Shown here piece by piece: positions 8,036 through 50,060 of a stretch of DNA of 64,000 bases. The DNA is from Halorubrum sp. 2020YC2 (GTDB taxonomy: Archaea; Halobacteriota; Halobacteria; Halobacteriales; Haloferacaceae): NCBI RefSeq assembly GCF_018623055.1, contig NZ_CP076019.1:1860001-1924000 (forward strand), in the 5' to 3' direction. The notes under the pieces were generated by a model, which was given only the letters and a program-made list of their open reading frames with translations, was not told the DNA's origin and searched no databases. The position numbers and the translations under genes are program-made. Position 1 is the first letter of the stretch. Each line of letters starts with the position of its first letter.

Positions 8036-8437
8036 ATAGCGGACCGCGAATCACCGGCGAACATCACCAAAGCCCCAGCCGCTCACTTATAAATGACGGA
8101 TAGTTGATCGACGACGGACACCTCCAAAGCCCCAGTCGCGAGGGCGGCGCACGCTCGCTGTCGTTCGAAAGGCGCGCAGCGCCTTTCGTGATGTCGTCAG
8201 AACGCTTCGCGTTCTGATTGGCTCACGAGAGCTCCGCTCTCGTGAACGCCTGCGCCGCCCTCGCGACTCCCCCTTTGAGTCCCGCCCCGACCGCACAGCA
8301 CCGCAGCCTCACGCCTCCCCAGCCTCGTCGGTGGCCCTCCGCTTCGCTCCGGACCACCGACTCCCTCGCGCGTGCTGGCTCACGGCCGCCGATGGCGGCC
8401 GCTCGCAGGCACGCGCCACCGCATCTCTTTTTATAAG
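8030..8437 (-). repeat. Repeat copy A: full-length modular structured repeat (about 400 bp)
   Basis: Read on the minus strand, it runs from a TTATAAAAAG box (8437-8428) through GTGGCGCGTGCC, an inner GCGGCCGCC/GGCGGCCG hairpin, and a second hairpin at 8361-8327 with a GGAGCGAAGCG loop. Next come the core GAGGCTGGGGAGGCGTGAGG and GACTCAAAGGGG, then a perfect 18 bp stem (arms 8268-8251 and 8151-8134) that encloses three further hairpins. The end is two tail units beginning CTGGGGCTTTGG at 8135 and 8078, each with TTTATAA 42 nt later. It fills the gap between the aminotransferase and aldo/keto reductase genes and has no convincing ORF. Confidence 0.85.
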
Positions 8438-13378: not shown

Positions 13379-13728
13379 TATAAAAAGGCAGTGGCGCGTG
13401 CCTGCGAGCGGCCGCCCCCGGCGGCCGCGAGGAGCACGCGCGAGGGAGTCAGTCGCCGGAGCGAAGCGACGGCGACTGACGAGGCTGGGGAGGCGTGAGG
13501 TGCGGTCGCGGTGCTGTGCGGGCGGGACTCAAAGGGGCAGCCGCGAGGGTCGCGCAGACGACGTAAGCACCGCAGCGAGCAACGCGAGCGAGGAGCGCAG
13601 CGAGTGTGCGTGGCCCTCGCGGCTGGGGCTTTGGAGGTGGTCGCTATCGATCCACCGTTAATCATTTATAAACGAGCAACTGGGGCTTTGGCGGTGGTCA
13701 CTGCCGATCCTCTGTCAGTTATTTATAA
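13379..13728 (+). repeat. Repeat copy B: full-length modular structured repeat (about 350 bp)
   Basis: The order is a TATAAAAA box at 13379-13386, then GTGGCGCGTGCC and the GCGGCCGCC/GGCGGCCGC hairpin. A second hairpin at 13448-13480 has arms GTCAGTCGCC/GGCGACTGAC and loop GGAGCGAAGCGAC. The core GAGGCTGGGGAGGCGTGAGG and GACTCAAAGGGG follow. The 19 bp long stem has left arm 13538-13556 and right arm 13607-13625; it pairs fully only if two G-U wobbles are allowed, which favours RNA. Two tail units start CTGGGGCTTTGG at 13623 and 13680, each with TTTATAA 42 nt later. There is no credible ORF. It lies between pdaD and pan. Confidence 0.87.
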
Positions 13729-13818
13729 CTGATCGGCTGAAATTCCAGCCGAGATAACCGATTGTACACTCCCTCCGAAAACCGAGACGTCGATCACGTA
13801 GTCGCCCCTGTAGTCGCC

Positions 13819-15027
13819 TCAGTACTGGTAGTTGATGACCTGCTCGTCCTCTTTGTCCGCGTCCTGAAGCTTGTCGCGGGCCTGCTCGAAGTCCGCCTGC
13901 GAGACCTCGGTGCGACCGTCGCGGATGGCGAACATCCCGGCCTCGGTCGCGAGCGACGCGATGTCCGCGCCGCTGTACCCGTCGAGGTCGCGGGCGACGA
14001 CGCCGAGGTCGACCCCGTCCGCGACGTTCATGTCCTGCGTGTGGATCTCGAGGATGCGCTCGCGGCCCTCGGGGCCCGGCTCGGGCACCTCGATGAGGCG
14101 GTCGAAGCGGCCGGGGCGCAGGATGGCCTCGTCGAGCATGTCGAAGCGGTTGGTCGCGGCCATGATCCGGATCTCGCCGCGGTCGTCGAAGCCGTCCATC
14201 TCGGAGAGCAGCTGCATCATCGTCCGCTGCACCTCGGCGTCGCCCGACGTCTTCGAGTCCGTGCGCTTGGCCGCGACGGCGTCGATCTCGTCGATGAAGA
14301 TGACGGCCGGCTCGCGCTCGGCGGCGAGTTCGAAGAGGTCGCGGACGAGCCGCGCGCCCTCACCGATGAACTTCCGGACCAGCTCGGAGCCGGCCATCTT
14401 GATGAAGGTGGCGTCGGACTCGTTGGCGACGGCCTTCGCGAGCATCGTCTTCCCGGTGCCCGGCGGGCCGTGGACGCCGCTCGGCGGCTCGACGCCGACC
14501 TTCTCGAACTGCTCGGGTTTCGGGGGTCCTCGACGGCCTCGCGGACCTCCCGGATCTGGTCGTCGATCCCGCCGATGTCGGCGTACTCGACGTCCGGGGA
14601 CTCGGTGACCTCCATCGCCTGCGCCGGGAGTCGGTCTCGTCGTCGAGCACCTGCTGGACCGCGAAGGAGTCGTTGATCGCGACGCGGTCGCCGGGGCGGA
14701 GGTCCTCGTCGAGCCGCGAGGCGGCCTGCGTGAGCACCTCCTGGTTGTTGCCGTGCTGTTTGATCACGACGCCGTCGTCGGTGATCTCCTCGACGGAGGC
14801 GATGTACAGCGAGGAGGTCTTCAACACCTCGTTCTCGCGTTTCAGCTGTTCGACGTCGTCTTTCAGCTCGCCGCGGCGCCCTCGGCGTCCGCGAGCCGAT
14901 CTTCCAGTTCCGTTCACCTGAACGATCCGCCGGAAGTGCTGACGGATCGCCTCCAGCCGCTCCGCGTCGCTCATCTCGGGTCGAGCTCCAACCGCGGGCG
15001 GTCGGGCAGTGAGGGGCTGTGAGACAT
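13819..15027 (-). pseudogene. pan: Proteasome-activating nucleotidase, frame broken at several points
   Basis: The pieces assemble to a full PAN AAA+ ATPase, which unfolds proteins for the archaeal 20S proteasome. The start at 15027 gives MSHSPSLPDRPRLELDP; frame is lost near 14977 before EMSDAERLEAIRQHF. Two compensating indels flank ELEDRLADAE (about 14918 and 14885). The OB-fold part LKTSSLYIASVEEITDDGVV is intact. Shifts near 14620 and 14525 lead to the AAA core: [16 protein letters not shown] (Walker A), [16 protein letters not shown] (Walker B), [20 protein letters not shown], and the C-terminal VINYQY, whose end has the HbYX proteasome-docking motif (hydrophobic-Tyr-any). The two residues usually before HGPPG (LL) are also missing in frame. 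So many hits in a housekeeping gene suggest sequence errors. Confidence 0.85.
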
Positions 15028-25642: not shown

Positions 25643-26350
25643 TTAGTCTGACGTGACTGGGCGGAAATCGACTGACAGTTCGGGATAGACTTCACTATCT
25701 GATTTCTCTTGTTCAAGTTGATCGAGGTAGTCTGCCAGCGTTTCGAGTTCGGGTATCTCGGTTGTGTCCGCGTATCGGTCTATGAGGTACCCAGCAACCG
25801 TAACGAAGAGCATTGAGTAATTGGGACTTCCCTGATAGTGGTGCCCAAGGTGTGCCAAGTTGTTCCGCTTTTTTCTGGCTAATTTGAGAGTTGCTTCGAT
25901 TTCATCTACATGGCCGTTAGGAACATCCCGGCGCAAGTCTTTCTTTAAGATATTCTCTGAATCGTTAATATGTGGTGTGTTCCCACCTTTGTTTGACATA
26001 TAAGTGAGGTAGTTTCGTGAGTTCAGTTTGAGGTGAACTGCTGATACTATCAGTTCTAATGCGACCCCATAGAACAAGTCCGCAGCCATGTGTCTAGACC
26101 AATCTCGTCGCGAAAGCCGGTTTGTAGACACGTCGCGGTTTTTCCACTCGTCTCCCGGCGCACCCACCTTCGTAATGGCCATATCAATGTACGCCGCAGC
26201 CTGCTTGAATTGTTGATCGTGGGGTGGACTCCCGTATTTAGAAACTTCTGGCTCATGGTAGTACGCCCAGATCTCGTACGTCGCTGCTCGATAGTGCTCA
26301 CCAACCTCCTGCTGGTACTGTCGTATTTGCTCCAAAGTATTCTGTCTCAT
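25643..26350 (-). CDS. HEPN-like protein in an AT-rich island
   Basis: This 235-residue protein has much less acidic composition and more A/T-rich codons (AAT, ATA, TTT) than its neighbours. RKKRNNLAHLGHHY contains R162-N-N-L-A-H167, the Rx4H motif with Asn after Arg that marks catalytic HEPN RNase domains. The helices before and after (about 85-115 and 145-200) fit a HEPN bundle; the N-terminal 70 residues include YEIWAYYHEPEVSKYGSPPH. HEPN RNases act in toxin-antitoxin, abortive infection and CRISPR systems. No partner gene is present. The atypical base composition and position between a regulator and repeat copy C suggest recent transfer. The HEPN assignment rests on one motif and secondary structure. 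Confidence 0.6.
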   Translation of the reverse strand: MRQNTLEQIRQYQQEVGEHYRAATYEIWAYYHEPEVSKYGSPPHDQQFKQAAAYIDMAITKVGAPGDEWKNRDVSTNRLSRRDWSRHMAADLFYGVALELIVSAVHLKLNSRNYLTYMSNKGGNTPHINDSENILKKDLRRDVPNGHVDEIEATLKLARKKRNNLAHLGHHYQGSPNYSMLFVTVAGYLIDRYADTTEIPELETLADYLDQLEQEKSDSEVYPELSVDFRPVTSD

Positions 26351-26432: not shown

Positions 26433-26609
26433 CCCCAAAGCCCCTTTGAGTCCCGCGCACGGTAACCGCGCCTCACACCTCCCCAGCCTCGTCGGCCGGC
26501 CTTCGCTTCGCTCCGGCCGGCCGACTCCCTCGCGCGTGCTGTCTCGCGGCCGCCGAGGGCGGCCGCTCGCAGGCACGCGCCACCGCGGTTTCCAGTATCC
26601 GCTTATCAA
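26433..26609 (-). repeat. Repeat copy C: truncated member lacking the long-stem module
   Basis: On the minus strand it has a weak TTGATAAGC box (26609-26601), GTGGCGCGTGCC from 26583, the GCGGCCGCC/GGCGGCCGC hairpin, and a second hairpin at 26525-26491 with perfect 11 bp arms (GTCGGCCGGCC/GGCCGGCCGAC) and loop GGAGCGAAGCGAA. The core GAGGCTGGGGAGGTGTGAGG follows. GACTCAAAGGGGCTTTGGGG then fuses the pre-stem box to the tail box (junction 26437-26446), so the long stem is absent. The AT-rich HEPN island starts directly after it. Confidence 0.85.
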
Positions 26610-26663: not shown

Positions 26664-28115
26664 ATGAGTTCGGGGGGCAGTTCCGGCGCGAGCGGGGCAG
26701 ACGGCGGGGGATCGGAGAGCGACGCGAACGAGTTCGACTTCGCGACGCCCGCGACCGACGGGTCGTTCGAGAACGCGCTCGCGAAGGCCCGCGACGGGAC
26801 GCGGCTCTCGGTCGACGACGCGACCGAACTGCTCGCCACCGGCACGGAGTCGTCCGGGATCGACCCCGTCCGCAAGGAGGCGGTGCTGGAGGCGGCCGAC
26901 CGGCGGCGGCGCGAGGCGGTGGGCGACGAGGTCACGTTCGTCGCCAACCTCAACAACAACGTCACCACGGCGTGTAACACCGGCTGCCTGTTCTGTAACT
27001 TCAAGGACTCCGCGCACGCCTTCGAAGCCGACAGCGACGTCGAACACGCCGGGTTCACCAAGACGCCGGCGGAGTCTCGCGAAGTCGTCGAGGACGCCCT
27101 CGACATGGGCGTCTACGAGGTCTGTTCCGTCTCGGGGCTCCACCCGGCGTTCGCGCTGAACGGGGAGCACCACGAGATCCTCGCGGGACACGACGACCCC
27201 GCGAGCGAGGTGAACTACAAGCCGCCCGAGGCGTACGCGACCGATCCGGGCACCTACGTCGAGCAGATGGAGGCGATGTCGGTCGGCGGCGTCCACCTCC
27301 ACTCGATGACCCCGGAGGAGGCGTACCACGCCTCGCGCGGCACCGACTGGGAGTACGAGGCCGTCTACCGCGAACTGGCCGACGCCGGACTCGACTCCGC
27401 GCCGGGCACCGCGGCCGAGATCCTCGTCGACGAGGTCCGCGACGTGATCTGCCCGGGGAAGATCCGCACCGACGACTGGGTCGCGGCGATGGAGGGCGCG
27501 GCCGCCGCCGGCTTAGACGTCACCTCGACGATGATGTACGGTCACGTCGAGACGGTCGAACACCGCGCGGAGCACCTGAAGGTGATCCGCGACCTCCAAG
27601 ACCGCACGGGCGCCATCACGGAGTTCGTCCCCCTCTCTTTCATCCACCAGAACACGCCCCTCTACCGTCGCGGCGTCGTCGACTCGGGGCCCTCGCACGC
27701 CGAGGACGAACTCGTGGTCGCGGTCGCGCGGCTCTTCTTGGACAACGTCGACCACGTTCAGGCCTCGTGGGTGAAGTCGGGCGACGCCCACGGCCTGAAG
27801 CTGCTCAACTGCGGCGCCGACGACTTCATGGGCACCATCCTCTCGGAGGAGATCACCAGCCGCGCGGGCGGCGAGTACGGCGAGTACCGCTCGTTCGACG
27901 ACTACGTCGAGATGATAACGGCGATCGGCCGCACCCCAGTCGAGCGCTCGACCGACTACCGCACCCGGCGCCGGATCGATCCCGACGACGGCCCGCACGG
28001 CCCGCGGCTCGGCCCGCGCGCCGACGGGACCCCATTGCTGCCGGACCGCTCGTCCGACGGCGGGAGAGCCGCCGGCGACGCGGCCGGGACGCCGCCCGCC
28101 GACGCTGACGACTGA
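26664..28115 (+). CDS. cofH: FO synthase subunit 2, radical SAM (coenzyme F420 pathway)
   Basis: The protein has 483 residues. With CofG it makes 7,8-didemethyl-8-hydroxy-5-deazariboflavin, the F420 chromophore, from tyrosine and a flavin precursor. The radical SAM iron-sulfur motif CNTGCLFC (CxxxCxxC) is near residue 107 in NNNVTTACNTGCLFCNFKD. GGVHLHSMTPEEAYHASRG, CPGKIRTDDWV and STMMYGHVETVEHRAEHL are typical of CofH/MqnC. EFVPLSFIHQNTPL also fits CofH. The first 40 residues (Gly/Ser, acidic) and the last 45 are low-complexity extensions. CofG is not in the window. The upstream neighbour, divergent, is repeat copy C. Confidence 0.93.
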   Translation: MSSGGSSGASGADGGGSESDANEFDFATPATDGSFENALAKARDGTRLSVDDATELLATGTESSGIDPVRKEAVLEAADRRRREAVGDEVTFVANLNNNVTTACNTGCLFCNFKDSAHAFEADSDVEHAGFTKTPAESREVVEDALDMGVYEVCSVSGLHPAFALNGEHHEILAGHDDPASEVNYKPPEAYATDPGTYVEQMEAMSVGGVHLHSMTPEEAYHASRGTDWEYEAVYRELADAGLDSAPGTAAEILVDEVRDVICPGKIRTDDWVAAMEGAAAAGLDVTSTMMYGHVETVEHRAEHLKVIRDLQDRTGAITEFVPLSFIHQNTPLYRRGVVDSGPSHAEDELVVAVARLFLDNVDHVQASWVKSGDAHGLKLLNCGADDFMGTILSEEITSRAGGEYGEYRSFDDYVEMITAIGRTPVERSTDYRTRRRIDPDDGPHGPRLGPRADGTPLLPDRSSDGGRAAGDAAGTPPADADD

Positions 28116-39023: not shown

Positions 39024-39041
39024 GCGGCTGACGGTCGAAAT

Positions 39042-39420
39042 GCGGTGGCGCGTGCCTGCGAGCGGCCGCCATCGGCGGCCGCGAGGAGCACGCGCGAGGG
39101 AGTCGGTGGCGGTCGAGCGAAGCGAAGACCGCCAGCGACGAGGCTGGGGAGGTGTGAGGCGCGGGCTGTGCGGGGCGGGACTCGAAGGGGCAGCCGTGAG
39201 GCCTCCTGAGGTGACGCAAGTACCACAGCGAGTGAGCGGAGTGAACGAGCGAGGAGCGCAGCGAGCGTCAGGAGGCCTCACGGCTGGGGCTTCGGCGGTC
39301 GTGTTCAGGTCGGTGATCGCGTATCGCCTCGCGGCTGGGGCTTCGGCGGGGTTCGTGTCGATCGTCGATTTATAAGTGCCACTTTCGTACAGCCGTGCGG
39401 CTGGGGCTTCGGCGGGCTCG
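39042..39420 (+). repeat. Repeat copy D: full-length modular structured repeat (about 380 bp)
   Basis: The order is GCGGTGGCGCGTGCC, the GCGGCCGCC/GGCGGCCGC hairpin, and a second hairpin at 39102-39139 (arms GTCGGTGGCGGTC/GACCGCCAGCGAC, one mismatch; loop GAGCGAAGCGAA). The core GAGGCTGGGGAGGTGTGAGG and GACTCGAAGGGG follow. The long stem has arms CAGCCGTGAGGCCTCCTGA (39191-39209) and TCAGGAGGCCTCACGGCTG (39268-39286): a perfect 19 bp with a sequence quite different from the other copies. Three tail boxes CTGGGGCTTCGGCGG start at 39284, 39334 and 39401 (spacing 50 and 67), with one TTTATAA at 39369. No TATA box precedes it; it abuts the pelota stop. Confidence 0.85.
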
Positions 39421-47242: not shown

Positions 47243-49483
47243 TCAGGCGGTCTCGGGGCGGACGGATTCGAGCGCCGCGTCGAAGTCCTCGCCGGTGATC
47301 CCGACCTCGTCGGCGTGGTCGTTGGCCGCCTCGCCGTGCTCGTCCGCGACGCGCTCGATGGCGCGCATCGCGGCCGCCCGGGACAGCGCGGCGATCTCCG
47401 CGCCGGAGTACCCCTCCGTCTCGTCGGCGAGGCGCTCCAAGTCGACCTCGTCGACCAGCGGCTTCTCTCGCATGTGGACCTCCAGAATCTTGCGGCGCGC
47501 CTCGCGGTCCGGCTCGGGCACCTCGACGTGGGTCTCCAAGCGGCCGGGACGGAGCAGCGCCGGGTCGAGCGCGTTCCGCCGGTTGGTCGCCGCGAGGACG
47601 ACGAGGTTCGGGTTGTCGCTGGCGCGGTCTAGCTCCGTGAGCAGCTGCGAGACCACCCGCTCGCCCACGCCGGAGCCGTCGCCGCCGGCGGCGTCGCGGT
47701 CGGTCGCGACCGCGTCGATCTCGTCGAAGAAGATGATCGCGGGCGCCGCCTGCCGAGCGCGGTCGAACAGCTCCCGGACCGCTTTCTCGGACTCACCGAC
47801 GTACCGGTCGAGGAGTTCGGGACCGGCGACCTGAATGAAGTTCACGCCGCTCTCGCCCGCGATGCCGCGCGCGAGCAGCGTCTTCCCGGTCCCCGGCGGC
47901 CCGTGGAGGAGGACCCCGGTCGGGGGGTCGGCGCCGGCGGCGTCGAACAGCGGCCCGTACGACAGCGGCCACGTCACCGCGCGTTCGAGTTCCTCCTTCG
48001 CCTCGTCGAGGCCGCCGACGTCGGTGAAGTCGGTGGTCGGCTGCTCGGCCACGTACTCGCGCATCGCGCTCGGCTCGACGTTCGCGTGGGCGGCCTCGAA
48101 GTCCGCCTTGCCGACGGTCACGTCGTTCAGCGCCCGGGAGTCGGACTCGCGGGCGCGCCGGAGCGCGGTCATCGCCGCCTCCTGTGCCAGCCCTTCGATG
48201 TCGGCGCCGACGAACCCGTGGGTGCGGTTCGCGATGCGGTCTAAGTCCACGTCGTCCGCGAGCGGCATCCGGCGCGTGTGGACGTCGAGGATCTGCCGCC
48301 GGCCCGCCTCGCCGGGGACGCCGATCTCGATCTCGCGGTCGAAGCGGCCGCCGCGGCGGAGCGCCGGGTCGATGGTGTCGACGCGGTTGGTCGCGCCGAT
48401 GACGATCACGTCGCCGCGGGCGTCGAGCCCGTCCATCAGCGAGAGCAGCTGGCCGACGACGCGGTTCTCCACGTCGCCGCCGTCGTCGCGCTTGCCCGCG
48501 ATCGAGTCGATCTCGTCGAAGAAGACGATCGCCGGGGCGTCCTCGCTCGCGCGCTCGAACACCTCGCGCAGGCGCTCCTCGGACTCCCCTTTGTACTTCG
48601 ACATGATCTCCGGGCCGTCGACGGTGATGAACGTCGCGTCGACCTCGTTGGCGACGGCGCGGGCGATGAGCGTCTTCCCGGTCCCCGGCGGCCCGTGGAG
48701 GAGGACGCCCTTCGGCGGGTCGATGCCGAGCCGGGTGAACACCTCCGGCTCGGAGAGCGGGAGTTCGATCGTCTCCCGGACCAGCTCTAGCTCCTCGTCT
48801 AACCCGCCGATGTCCTCGTAGGTCGCGCCCGCGGTGCGCTCGGCGGGCGGAGCGTCGGCGGCCTTCGGCTCCGCGTCGGTCGCCGGCGGCGCGCCGTCGG
48901 ACCCGGTCGACTTCCCGACGTCATCGTCCGAGCGCCGGGGCGGCGCGTCGACGCGGTCGTTCGCGGTCCCCGCGTCGTCCTCGTACTCGACCGAGACGTC
49001 GGTCGAAGCGGCGATTCGGACGGTCCCCGCGGGCGCCGTCCGAGCGACGACGAACCGGAGGCCGCCCAGCCGCTCGACGTGGACGGCCTCGCCCTCCGTG
49101 ACGGGGCGGTCGCGCAGTTCGCGGGAGAGCGCGCGCTCGACCACCTCGCGGCTCACGTCCACCTCCGCGAGGCGGCCGGGCGCGGAAAGCGTCACGCGAT
49201 CGGCGTCGGAGACGTCGACCGGGGCGACCGTCACGGTGTCGCCCACCTTCACGCCGGCGTTCGCGCGGGTGTCGGCGTCGATGAGGACGGAGCCGTCGGC
49301 GGCGTCGGGACCGCCCGGCCACACCTTCGCGACGGCGGTGCGCTCGCCGCGCACCTCGACCGTGTCGCCGCTGAGGAGGGCGAGCCGCTTGCGGGCCGAC
49401 TCGGGGAGCCTGGCGATGCCCCGGCCCGCGTCCCGCTTCTCGGCGGCACGCACCGTGAGCCGGAGCCCTGCGGTGTCGTTCAT
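47243..49483 (-). CDS. cdc48: AAA+ ATPase, Cdc48/VCP family
   Basis: The protein has 746 residues. An N-terminal double-psi barrel (RLTVRAAEKRDAGRGIARLP, RANAGVKVGDTVTVAPVDVS) is followed by an acidic linker (about 185-235) and two AAA domains. Walker A motifs are in [20 protein letters not shown] and [20 protein letters not shown]. Walker B motifs are in APAIVFFDEIDSIAGKRDDG and APAIIFFDEIDAVATDR. Arginine-finger regions are RRGGRFDREIEIG and RPGRLETHVEVPE. It unfolds ubiquitin-like (SAMP) or other tagged proteins in archaea and may feed the proteasome. The start at 49483 gives MNDTAGLRLTVRA; the frame is open upstream into repeat copy E. Confidence 0.94.
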   Translation of the reverse strand: MNDTAGLRLTVRAAEKRDAGRGIARLPESARKRLALLSGDTVEVRGERTAVAKVWPGGPDAADGSVLIDADTRANAGVKVGDTVTVAPVDVSDADRVTLSAPGRLAEVDVSREVVERALSRELRDRPVTEGEAVHVERLGGLRFVVARTAPAGTVRIAASTDVSVEYEDDAGTANDRVDAPPRRSDDDVGKSTGSDGAPPATDAEPKAADAPPAERTAGATYEDIGGLDEELELVRETIELPLSEPEVFTRLGIDPPKGVLLHGPPGTGKTLIARAVANEVDATFITVDGPEIMSKYKGESEERLREVFERASEDAPAIVFFDEIDSIAGKRDDGGDVENRVVGQLLSLMDGLDARGDVIVIGATNRVDTIDPALRRGGRFDREIEIGVPGEAGRRQILDVHTRRMPLADDVDLDRIANRTHGFVGADIEGLAQEAAMTALRRARESDSRALNDVTVGKADFEAAHANVEPSAMREYVAEQPTTDFTDVGGLDEAKEELERAVTWPLSYGPLFDAAGADPPTGVLLHGPPGTGKTLLARGIAGESGVNFIQVAGPELLDRYVGESEKAVRELFDRARQAAPAIIFFDEIDAVATDRDAAGGDGSGVGERVVSQLLTELDRASDNPNLVVLAATNRRNALDPALLRPGRLETHVEVPEPDREARRKILEVHMREKPLVDEVDLERLADETEGYSGAEIAALSRAAAMRAIERVADEHGEAANDHADEVGITGEDFDAALESVRPETA

Positions 49484-49591: not shown

Positions 49592-50060
49592 TTTTAAAAG
49601 CGGTTGCGGTGGCGCGAGTCGCACGCGCGAGGTCGCCGGCGGCAAAGCCGCCGGCTGCCAGAGAATCTTCGATTCTCGCTGGACGCGGCGACCGGAGCGA
49701 AGCGAAGGGAGCCGCGAGGCTGGGGAGGCGTGAGGCTGCGGTGCTGTGCGGTGGGAGGCGGGACTCAAAGGGGCAGCCGGGAGGGCCGCGCAGACGACGT
49801 AAGCACCGCAGGGAGCGAACGGAGTGAGCGACCGAGGAGCGTGGTTCGAGAGAGCTTCGCCGTTTCGTCATCGCCGGAAATCTTTGATTTCCGGCTAGCA
49901 GTCAGAACGCTTCGCGTTCTGACGACATCACGAGACGCCTTCGGCGTCTCGAACGACAGCGAGCGTGCGCGGCCCTCCCGGCTGGGGCTTTGGAGGTGTT
50001 CGTCGCAGCGTCACCGATTGTTTATAAATAGTCGACGGCAACACCGGCCTCCACTTATAA
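49592..50060 (+). repeat. Repeat copy E: full-length modular structured repeat with extra hairpins (about 470 bp)
   Basis: TTTTAAAA (49592-49599) is followed by GCGGTGGCGCG and a different 5' module: GGTCGCC (49631-49637) pairs with GGCGACC (49687-49693) around two hairpins. Then come GGAGCGAAGCGAA, the core GAGGCTGGGGAGGCGTGAGG and GACTCAAAGGGG. The long stem is CAGCCGGGAGGGCCGCGCA (49774-49792) and TGCGCGGCCCTCCCGGCTG (49966-49984), perfect 19 bp. It encloses three hairpins, two linked by GACGACATCACGA as in copy A, one with a C(TTCG)G loop. The tail box CTGGGGCTTTGGAGG is at 49982 with TTTATAA at 50021 and a second CTTATAAA near 50054. It lies between cdc48 and endA. Confidence 0.85.

Follow-up and report, generated by a model that had tools for sequence, protein, structure and literature searches.

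Loss of the long hairpin from one copy of a modular, dispersed repeat in Halorubrum

Deletions between direct repeats of 4–20 bp are described for Haloquadratum, including core deletions in dispersed repeats, and the paper that describes these deletions proposes an undescribed repeat-mediated process (PMC3119063). Archaeal PolB and PolD slip in vitro on a hairpin template with direct repeats; the P. abyssi slippage assay, as it is described, had 27-bp direct repeats and 300-bp inverted repeats, and PCNA inhibited slippage (PMC4134008). The window analysed here, a 64,000-nucleotide stretch of the genome of Halorubrum sp. 2020YC2, contains five copies of a repeat (A to E). Copies A, B, D, and E all carry a long stem at the point where copy C has none.

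Copy C and the full copy at its locus

Copy C lies between cofH and an ORF of 235 aa.

26433..26590, minus strand: copy C, short (stem-less) copy of the repeat (sequence; blastn to other copies in the window and to at least 40 places in the genome)
26532..26580, minus strand: P1 hairpin of copy C, GCGCGTGC ... GCACGCGC (sequence; fold of copy C)
26491..26525, minus strand: P2 hairpin of copy C (sequence; fold of copy C)
26478..26490, minus strand: conserved linker GAGGCTGGGGAGG of copy C (alignment; junction search)
26440..26444, minus strand: single remaining GGGGC, the deletion junction of copy C (alignment with the full ortholog in genome G047)
26435..26440, minus strand: CTTTGG, right side of the lost stem and start of the tail (sequence; homologous to the tail in G047)
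26664..28115, plus strand: cofH (F420 biosynthesis), conserved flank for finding orthologous loci (NCBIfam NF005609 CofH, 533 bits against a cut-off of 426)
25643..26350, minus strand: ORF of 235 aa on the other side of copy C, also beside the full copy in G047 (no family match in Pfam or NCBIfam)

The minus-strand sequence of copy C, GACTCAAAGGGGCTTTGG, contains a single GGGGC at the point where the full copies have GGGGC, stem, and GGGGC. P1, which is near the 5' end of the element, P2, and the linker are retained and are followed by GACTCAAAGGGGCTTTGGGG, in agreement with the initial annotation, according to which the long-stem module had been lost while the 5' part was kept. Within the linker is GGCTGGGG, which the alignment and the junction search identify as the left partner of another, commoner deletion junction. 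By blastn, copy C pairs with copies D, E, and A of the window at 86–87% across approximately 150 bp, and at least 40 copies of the repeat were found in the genome with copy C, which indicates that its likeness to these is not due to chance.

13384..13640, plus strand: full copy A (sequence; RNA fold z-score -4.6)
49600..50005, plus strand: full copy B, in which module 1 and the stem both hold plug-in hairpins (sequence; blastn)
39038..39310, plus strand: full copy D, frame GAAG/CTTC, compensated (sequence; blastn)
8110..8427, minus strand: full copy E, frame AGTC/GACT, compensated (sequence; blastn)

The frame of the stem that had been claimed for the full copies, AAAGGGGCAGCC on the left and GGCTGGGGCTTT on the right, is exact in copies A and B, but is GAAGGGGCAGCC and GGCTGGGGCTTCGG in D and AAAGGGGGAGTC and GACTGGGGCTTT in E. 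In both of the latter the pairs are kept, as the changes are compensated across the stem (A-T to G-C; AGTC with GACT), and these exceptions strengthen the reading of the frame as a helix. In the case of copy A, the stem module, the part that is removed in a C-type deletion, is at 13539–13629, and 0 of 200 shuffles are as stable as its RNA fold. Other repeated DNA in the window, at 47680–48741 and 14037–14474 (71–75% identity by blastn), is at positions outside this family.

In the closest relative, G047 (94% CofH identity over the first 300 residues), a full element separates cofH from the same 235-aa ORF. In a pairwise alignment, copy C is without one 108-bp block, which begins directly after the first GGGGC and runs through the second, and beyond this gap the two genomes are homologous on both sides, the start of the 235-aa ORF included. 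It had been proposed that copy C is a full copy without everything between the two GGGGC, and that the same locus be searched for a full copy. The absence of the block and the one GGGGC that is left confirm the former, and a full copy is present in G047 and at 8 of 30 loci read upstream of cofH. There are at these loci also 1 short copy (copy C), 3 of another reduced form, and 18 with no recognised copy, in a classification that is conservative, in that it misses some copies seen by motif (L400 and L401, with short flanks) and places a stem with an insertion (L423) under "other". The comparison shows that copy C, as far as sequence can tell, descends from a full-length copy that has lost its long hairpin.

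Distribution, structure, and probable sequence exchange of the repeat

The pattern ACTCRAAGGGG has 132 occurrences in this genome, from which 110 distinct sites were fetched and read. There are 107 true copies, the three sites left out (L011, L315, L331) being without the element. Automatic classification of the 107 gives 103 full copies, 1 short (copy C), and 3 unassigned, of which by reading L337 is stem-less and L298 and L309 keep a stem with its right base changed. The full left arm GGACTCRAAGGGGCAG is present at 2,666 places in 48 of the 52 genomes of the genus, with 118 in this genome and a maximum of 168 in G022. Across the class, the repeat was detected by DNA match in 211 of the 292 genomes and in 59 of the 77 genera sampled. 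Diverged copies are found on plasmids of Halobaculum, Halorubrum, Halorussus, and Natrinema, and a Halorubrum salinarum plasmid is among the nearest named matches to the repeat. Diverged relatives in Halobaculum and Natrinema (L271, L274, L276) carry GACTGAAAGGGGCC with GGGGGCTTTC and a longer outer helix, CTGAAAG/CTTTCAG in Natrinema, which would mean that the core of the repeat spans families. A search of phage records with the repeat gave no match, as did an Rfam search of the window, five copies included, at the gathering score, and searches of the open-access PMC literature listed no paper that was recognised as describing this repeat.

The repeat is approximately 250–450 bp and is intergenic by a crude gene call, a called gene overlapping 1 of the 107 copies. 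By the same crude means, the upstream gene has the orientation of the element in 46 of the 86 cases that could be called, and the downstream gene has the opposite one in 63 of 99; these counts lend no support to cis-regulation of one neighbour by the element.

The structure was assessed in an alignment of 54 of the 107 copies, chosen as compact (without long plug-in hairpins), using 24 pairs from the outer P1, AAAG/CTTT, and the stem. Of the cells in these pairs 98.5% are paired, against 91.5% in shuffles, and for the outer P1 the figure is 99.1%. Both-sided changes are present on 9 of the 24 pairs, in 85 cells, the copies being related such that the statistics overstate their independence. 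The covariation score of 0.217 (0.080 with sd 0.006 when shuffled) was reached by 0 of 500 shuffles, which for related copies is not a strict probability, and the signal is destroyed when the partners are slid by 1–3 columns. At columns 176/306, outside the GGGGC repeats, the pair is A-U in 47 copies, G-C in 5, and G-U in 2, a compensation which indicates that the helix continues through the GGGGC repeats. A somewhat larger set of pairs contains 27 G-U and 6 A-C, an excess that would be predicted for a plus strand acting as RNA and that, given related copies, is suggestive. Taken with the both-sided changes, it points to selection as RNA, from which we infer a function. The unpaired motifs GAGGCTGGGGAGG and GACTCAAAGGGGC are nearly invariant in the alignment. 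One conceivable reading of the GGGC/GGGG internal loop would make it a component of a G-quadruplex. In 77 of 106 copies a TTATA or TTTAAA precedes the 5' start by no more than 60 nt, compared with 0 of 107 far-upstream windows, and in 62 of 105 copies such a box follows the GGGG of the right stem base at a distance of exactly 41 nt. As a hint of transcription, the upstream TATA-like boxes are only suggestive.

Most likely, the element functions as a transcribed structured RNA or is derived from one, and its copies would spread and exchange sequence. A broader reading, which can be put forward only tentatively, is that the repeat is a family of structured, multi-copy RNAs, so far undescribed, that extends across the class Halobacteria, with TATA-like flanks, a conserved core, exchangeable peripheral hairpins, and ongoing exchange between loci. 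Were this true, such RNAs would have more than 100 loci per genome in this species, and stem-less copies like C would be natural deletion mutants that mark a part dispensable for persistence. A rival reading of appreciable probability, though less than even, is that the stems are kept perfect by DNA mechanisms, such as template switching between the arms, and not by selection as RNA, the element being palindromic selfish DNA. Plug-in hairpins and near-perfect long stems are indeed the expected products of quasi-palindrome correction, and the element has no strong link to gene orientation, but a strand-symmetric DNA process would not give the asymmetry between G-U and A-C, and the near invariance of the unpaired motifs also speaks against this reading.

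Plug-in hairpins (for example GCCGGCGGCGAAGCCGCCGGC, AGAATCTTCGATTCTC, and CACGAGAGCGGAGCTCTCGTG) are seen at fixed positions in many copies as exchangeable modules (L018, L279, and L332 of this genome; 49620–49690 in the window). Tail units of approximately 57–66 bp start with GGCTGGGGCTTTGG, often end in TTTATAA, and are present in up to 6 repeats, some identical, in a VNTR-like manner (13620–13730 and 39300–39420 in the window; L004, L027). P1, P2, the stem, the plug-in hairpins, and the tail units vary or are lost separately, which supports the earlier view of the family as modular. The element appears to be a modular, dispersed repeat of Halobacteria with stems that are kept by compensatory change.

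Four further genes next to copies are, from reading of their translations and not from family searches, those that we take to be mptA, TFB, thi4, and trmY. In many species the element occupies the same locus, with full copies at 12 of 30 thi4 loci, 10 of 30 trmY loci, and 13 of 30 mptA loci. As a match to the copy in this genome, the G047 ortholog ranks 22 at cofH, 1 at thi4, 52 at mptA, and 86 at trmY (of 107–108), and at three of the four loci compared between the two genomes the best match is not the ortholog but a paralog from the same genome. The simplest reading would be that the locus is kept and the sequence is not, through exchange between copies or replacement.

Deletion junctions and the loss of the stem

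The exact pattern ACTCRAAGGGGCTTYGG is present once each in 4 of the 52 genus genomes, at four different loci: cofH in this genome, beside mptA in G010, beside the TFB gene in G001, and upstream of thi4 in G032. A search for further junctions with CTTTGG, suggested at the outset, thus finds the identical junction at three more loci, with full copies in relatives at each. Among 30 loci read for each, the full copies number 8 for cofH, 12 for thi4, 13 for mptA, and 3 for TFB, against 1 short copy each. That other species have kept full copies at each of these loci indicates deletion and not insertion. The stem-less GGGGC form is rare, with 4 junctions to the 2,666 full left arms of the 52 genomes, and stem-less copies are probably rare by-products that are without the function of the stem.

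GGGGC is not the only junction of the short forms. At the trmY locus of this genome, L337 is a stem-less copy with the junction AAAGGGGCTGGGGCTTT, which fits a GGC repeat. Another junction, CGAGGYYGGGGCTTYGG, is consistent with a deletion between two 8-bp copies of GGCTGGGG, one in the linker and one at the right base of the stem, by which the linker is lost too. This pattern has 66 matches in 32 of the 52 genus genomes; of 30 of these that were read, 23 have P1/P2 without the stem, a stem or minimal hairpin persists in 5, and P1/P2 are not recognisable in 2. The 8-bp junction is commoner than the 5-bp GGGGC junction. At thi4 there is the deeper GGCTGGGG deletion in G036 where G032 has the GGGGC deletion, in G023 the junction at TFB is by reading on GACT, and a reduced form at trmY in G033 (L434) has by eye no clear direct repeat at its junction. 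In a third reduced form (L221, L235, and L272, the last on the Halorubrum salinarum plasmid), what is left of the stem is a small hairpin with a GNRA-like loop, AGCC-GCGA-GGCT being one example. In simulated random deletions of 60–179 bp in the G047 element (16,260 cases), microhomology of at least 5 bp is present in 1.6% and of at least 8 bp in 0.17%. The junction of copy C is one of several, mostly on short direct repeats, with the longer repeat used more often, and the interpretation in the initial annotation is supported with this correction.

In all likelihood, the stem of copy C was deleted between the two GGGGC at the base of the hairpin, probably by slippage, within a modular structured repeat. 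The polymerase would stall at the base of the hairpin after copying the first GGGGC, and the nascent end would then re-anneal to the second GGGGC, such that the hairpin and one GGGGC are skipped. Slippage between short direct repeats at the hairpin base is the mechanism that fits best, and we infer it in preference to end joining.

The same deletion could have come about by a double-strand break at the hairpin, through cruciform cleavage, followed by microhomology-mediated end joining. This is the less probable course, and yet one to be taken seriously, since it would leave the same junction as slippage, the junction homologies of 3–8 bp fit it equally well, and such a resemblance is discussed for Haloquadratum in the deletion account of PMC3119063. 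An identical junction at four loci, on repeats exactly at the hairpin base, favours a template-directed event over end joining, but is not decisive. It is very improbable that short copies were spread to their sites by gene conversion from a stem-less donor in place of being deleted there. Copies do seem to exchange sequence, the G047 ortholog not being the closest match at three of four loci, but each of the 4 genomes (of 52) with the exact GGGGC junction has it at a single place, so that there is no donor with the same junction in these. An ancestral short form, into which the stem was inserted as a small inverted-repeat transposon with AGCC...GGCT ends and duplication of a GGGGC target, can hardly be credited and is rejected, for while the inverted ends and the identical 5-bp direct repeats at the flanks are those of a MITE with target duplication, full copies predominate over the 4 short ones, relatives hold full copies at every short locus, the A-U/G-C compensation at columns 176/306 carries the helix across GGGGC and places both repeats within one structure, and other loss junctions are inside the supposed transposon (GGC in L337; the minimal hairpins of L221, L235, and L272).

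With four natural deletions that share one base-precise junction, and a full copy at each locus, deletion by slippage or otherwise at the base of a hairpin becomes countable in an archaeon, and direct repeats of 3, 5, and 8 bp can be compared with how frequently each is used.

Comparison with known repeats and deletions

The deletion mechanism is a known process and the repeat family is the part worth following; indeed, this large structured family across the haloarchaea is less explained than the loss of the stem. With more than 100 copies per genome, conserved unpaired motifs, and no Rfam match, it is a candidate RNA or mobile family that annotation has passed over, and if transcribed it would, in our judgement, be an unusually repeated RNA gene for an archaeon.

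Bacterial repeats of the REP/BIME and MITE types are, like this repeat, interspersed, palindromic, intergenic, and of high copy number. They are mostly shorter and have one or two palindromes, whereas the element here has a conserved architecture, with three or more helices in approximately 250–450 bp. Visual comparison of the 5' end GCGGTGGCGCG with the tail showed no terminal inverted repeats, a trait of MITEs, and the 3' end varies in the number of tail units. At mptA in G025 and G029 (L458, L463) the sites are apparently empty, the whole intergenic stretch being absent but for tens of bases.

The PATEs of Haloquadratum, as they are described in PMC3119063, are too short for a transposase, number 177–194 per genome, and are heterogeneous, with near-terminal palindromes related to IS605-type ends. 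The repeat here appears similar in its shortness, heterogeneity, and palindromes, and has 107 copies read in this genome. In contrast to the PATEs so described, its palindromes form the arms of several helices within one structure and are accompanied by a tandem tail that carries TATA-like boxes. The repeat-mediated deletions described for Haloquadratum walsbyi resemble that of copy C, in that a segment and one short direct repeat are lost, as seen at the same locus in relatives (PMC3119063). Copy C has a relative with the sequence, short direct repeats at its flanks, and one repeat left, as do the deletions at thi4, mptA, and TFB. The core deletion described in H. walsbyi used a 22-bp repeat in HqIRS46 (PMC3119063), whereas here it is a 5-bp repeat at the base of a hairpin, in another family. 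In the slippage model, as set out in PMC4134008, the direct repeats are at the hairpin base and one of them is lost with the hairpin, as at copy C. The assay described there had repeats of 27 bp and arms of 300 bp, compared with 5 bp and an interval of approximately 100 bp in this repeat (PMC4134008).
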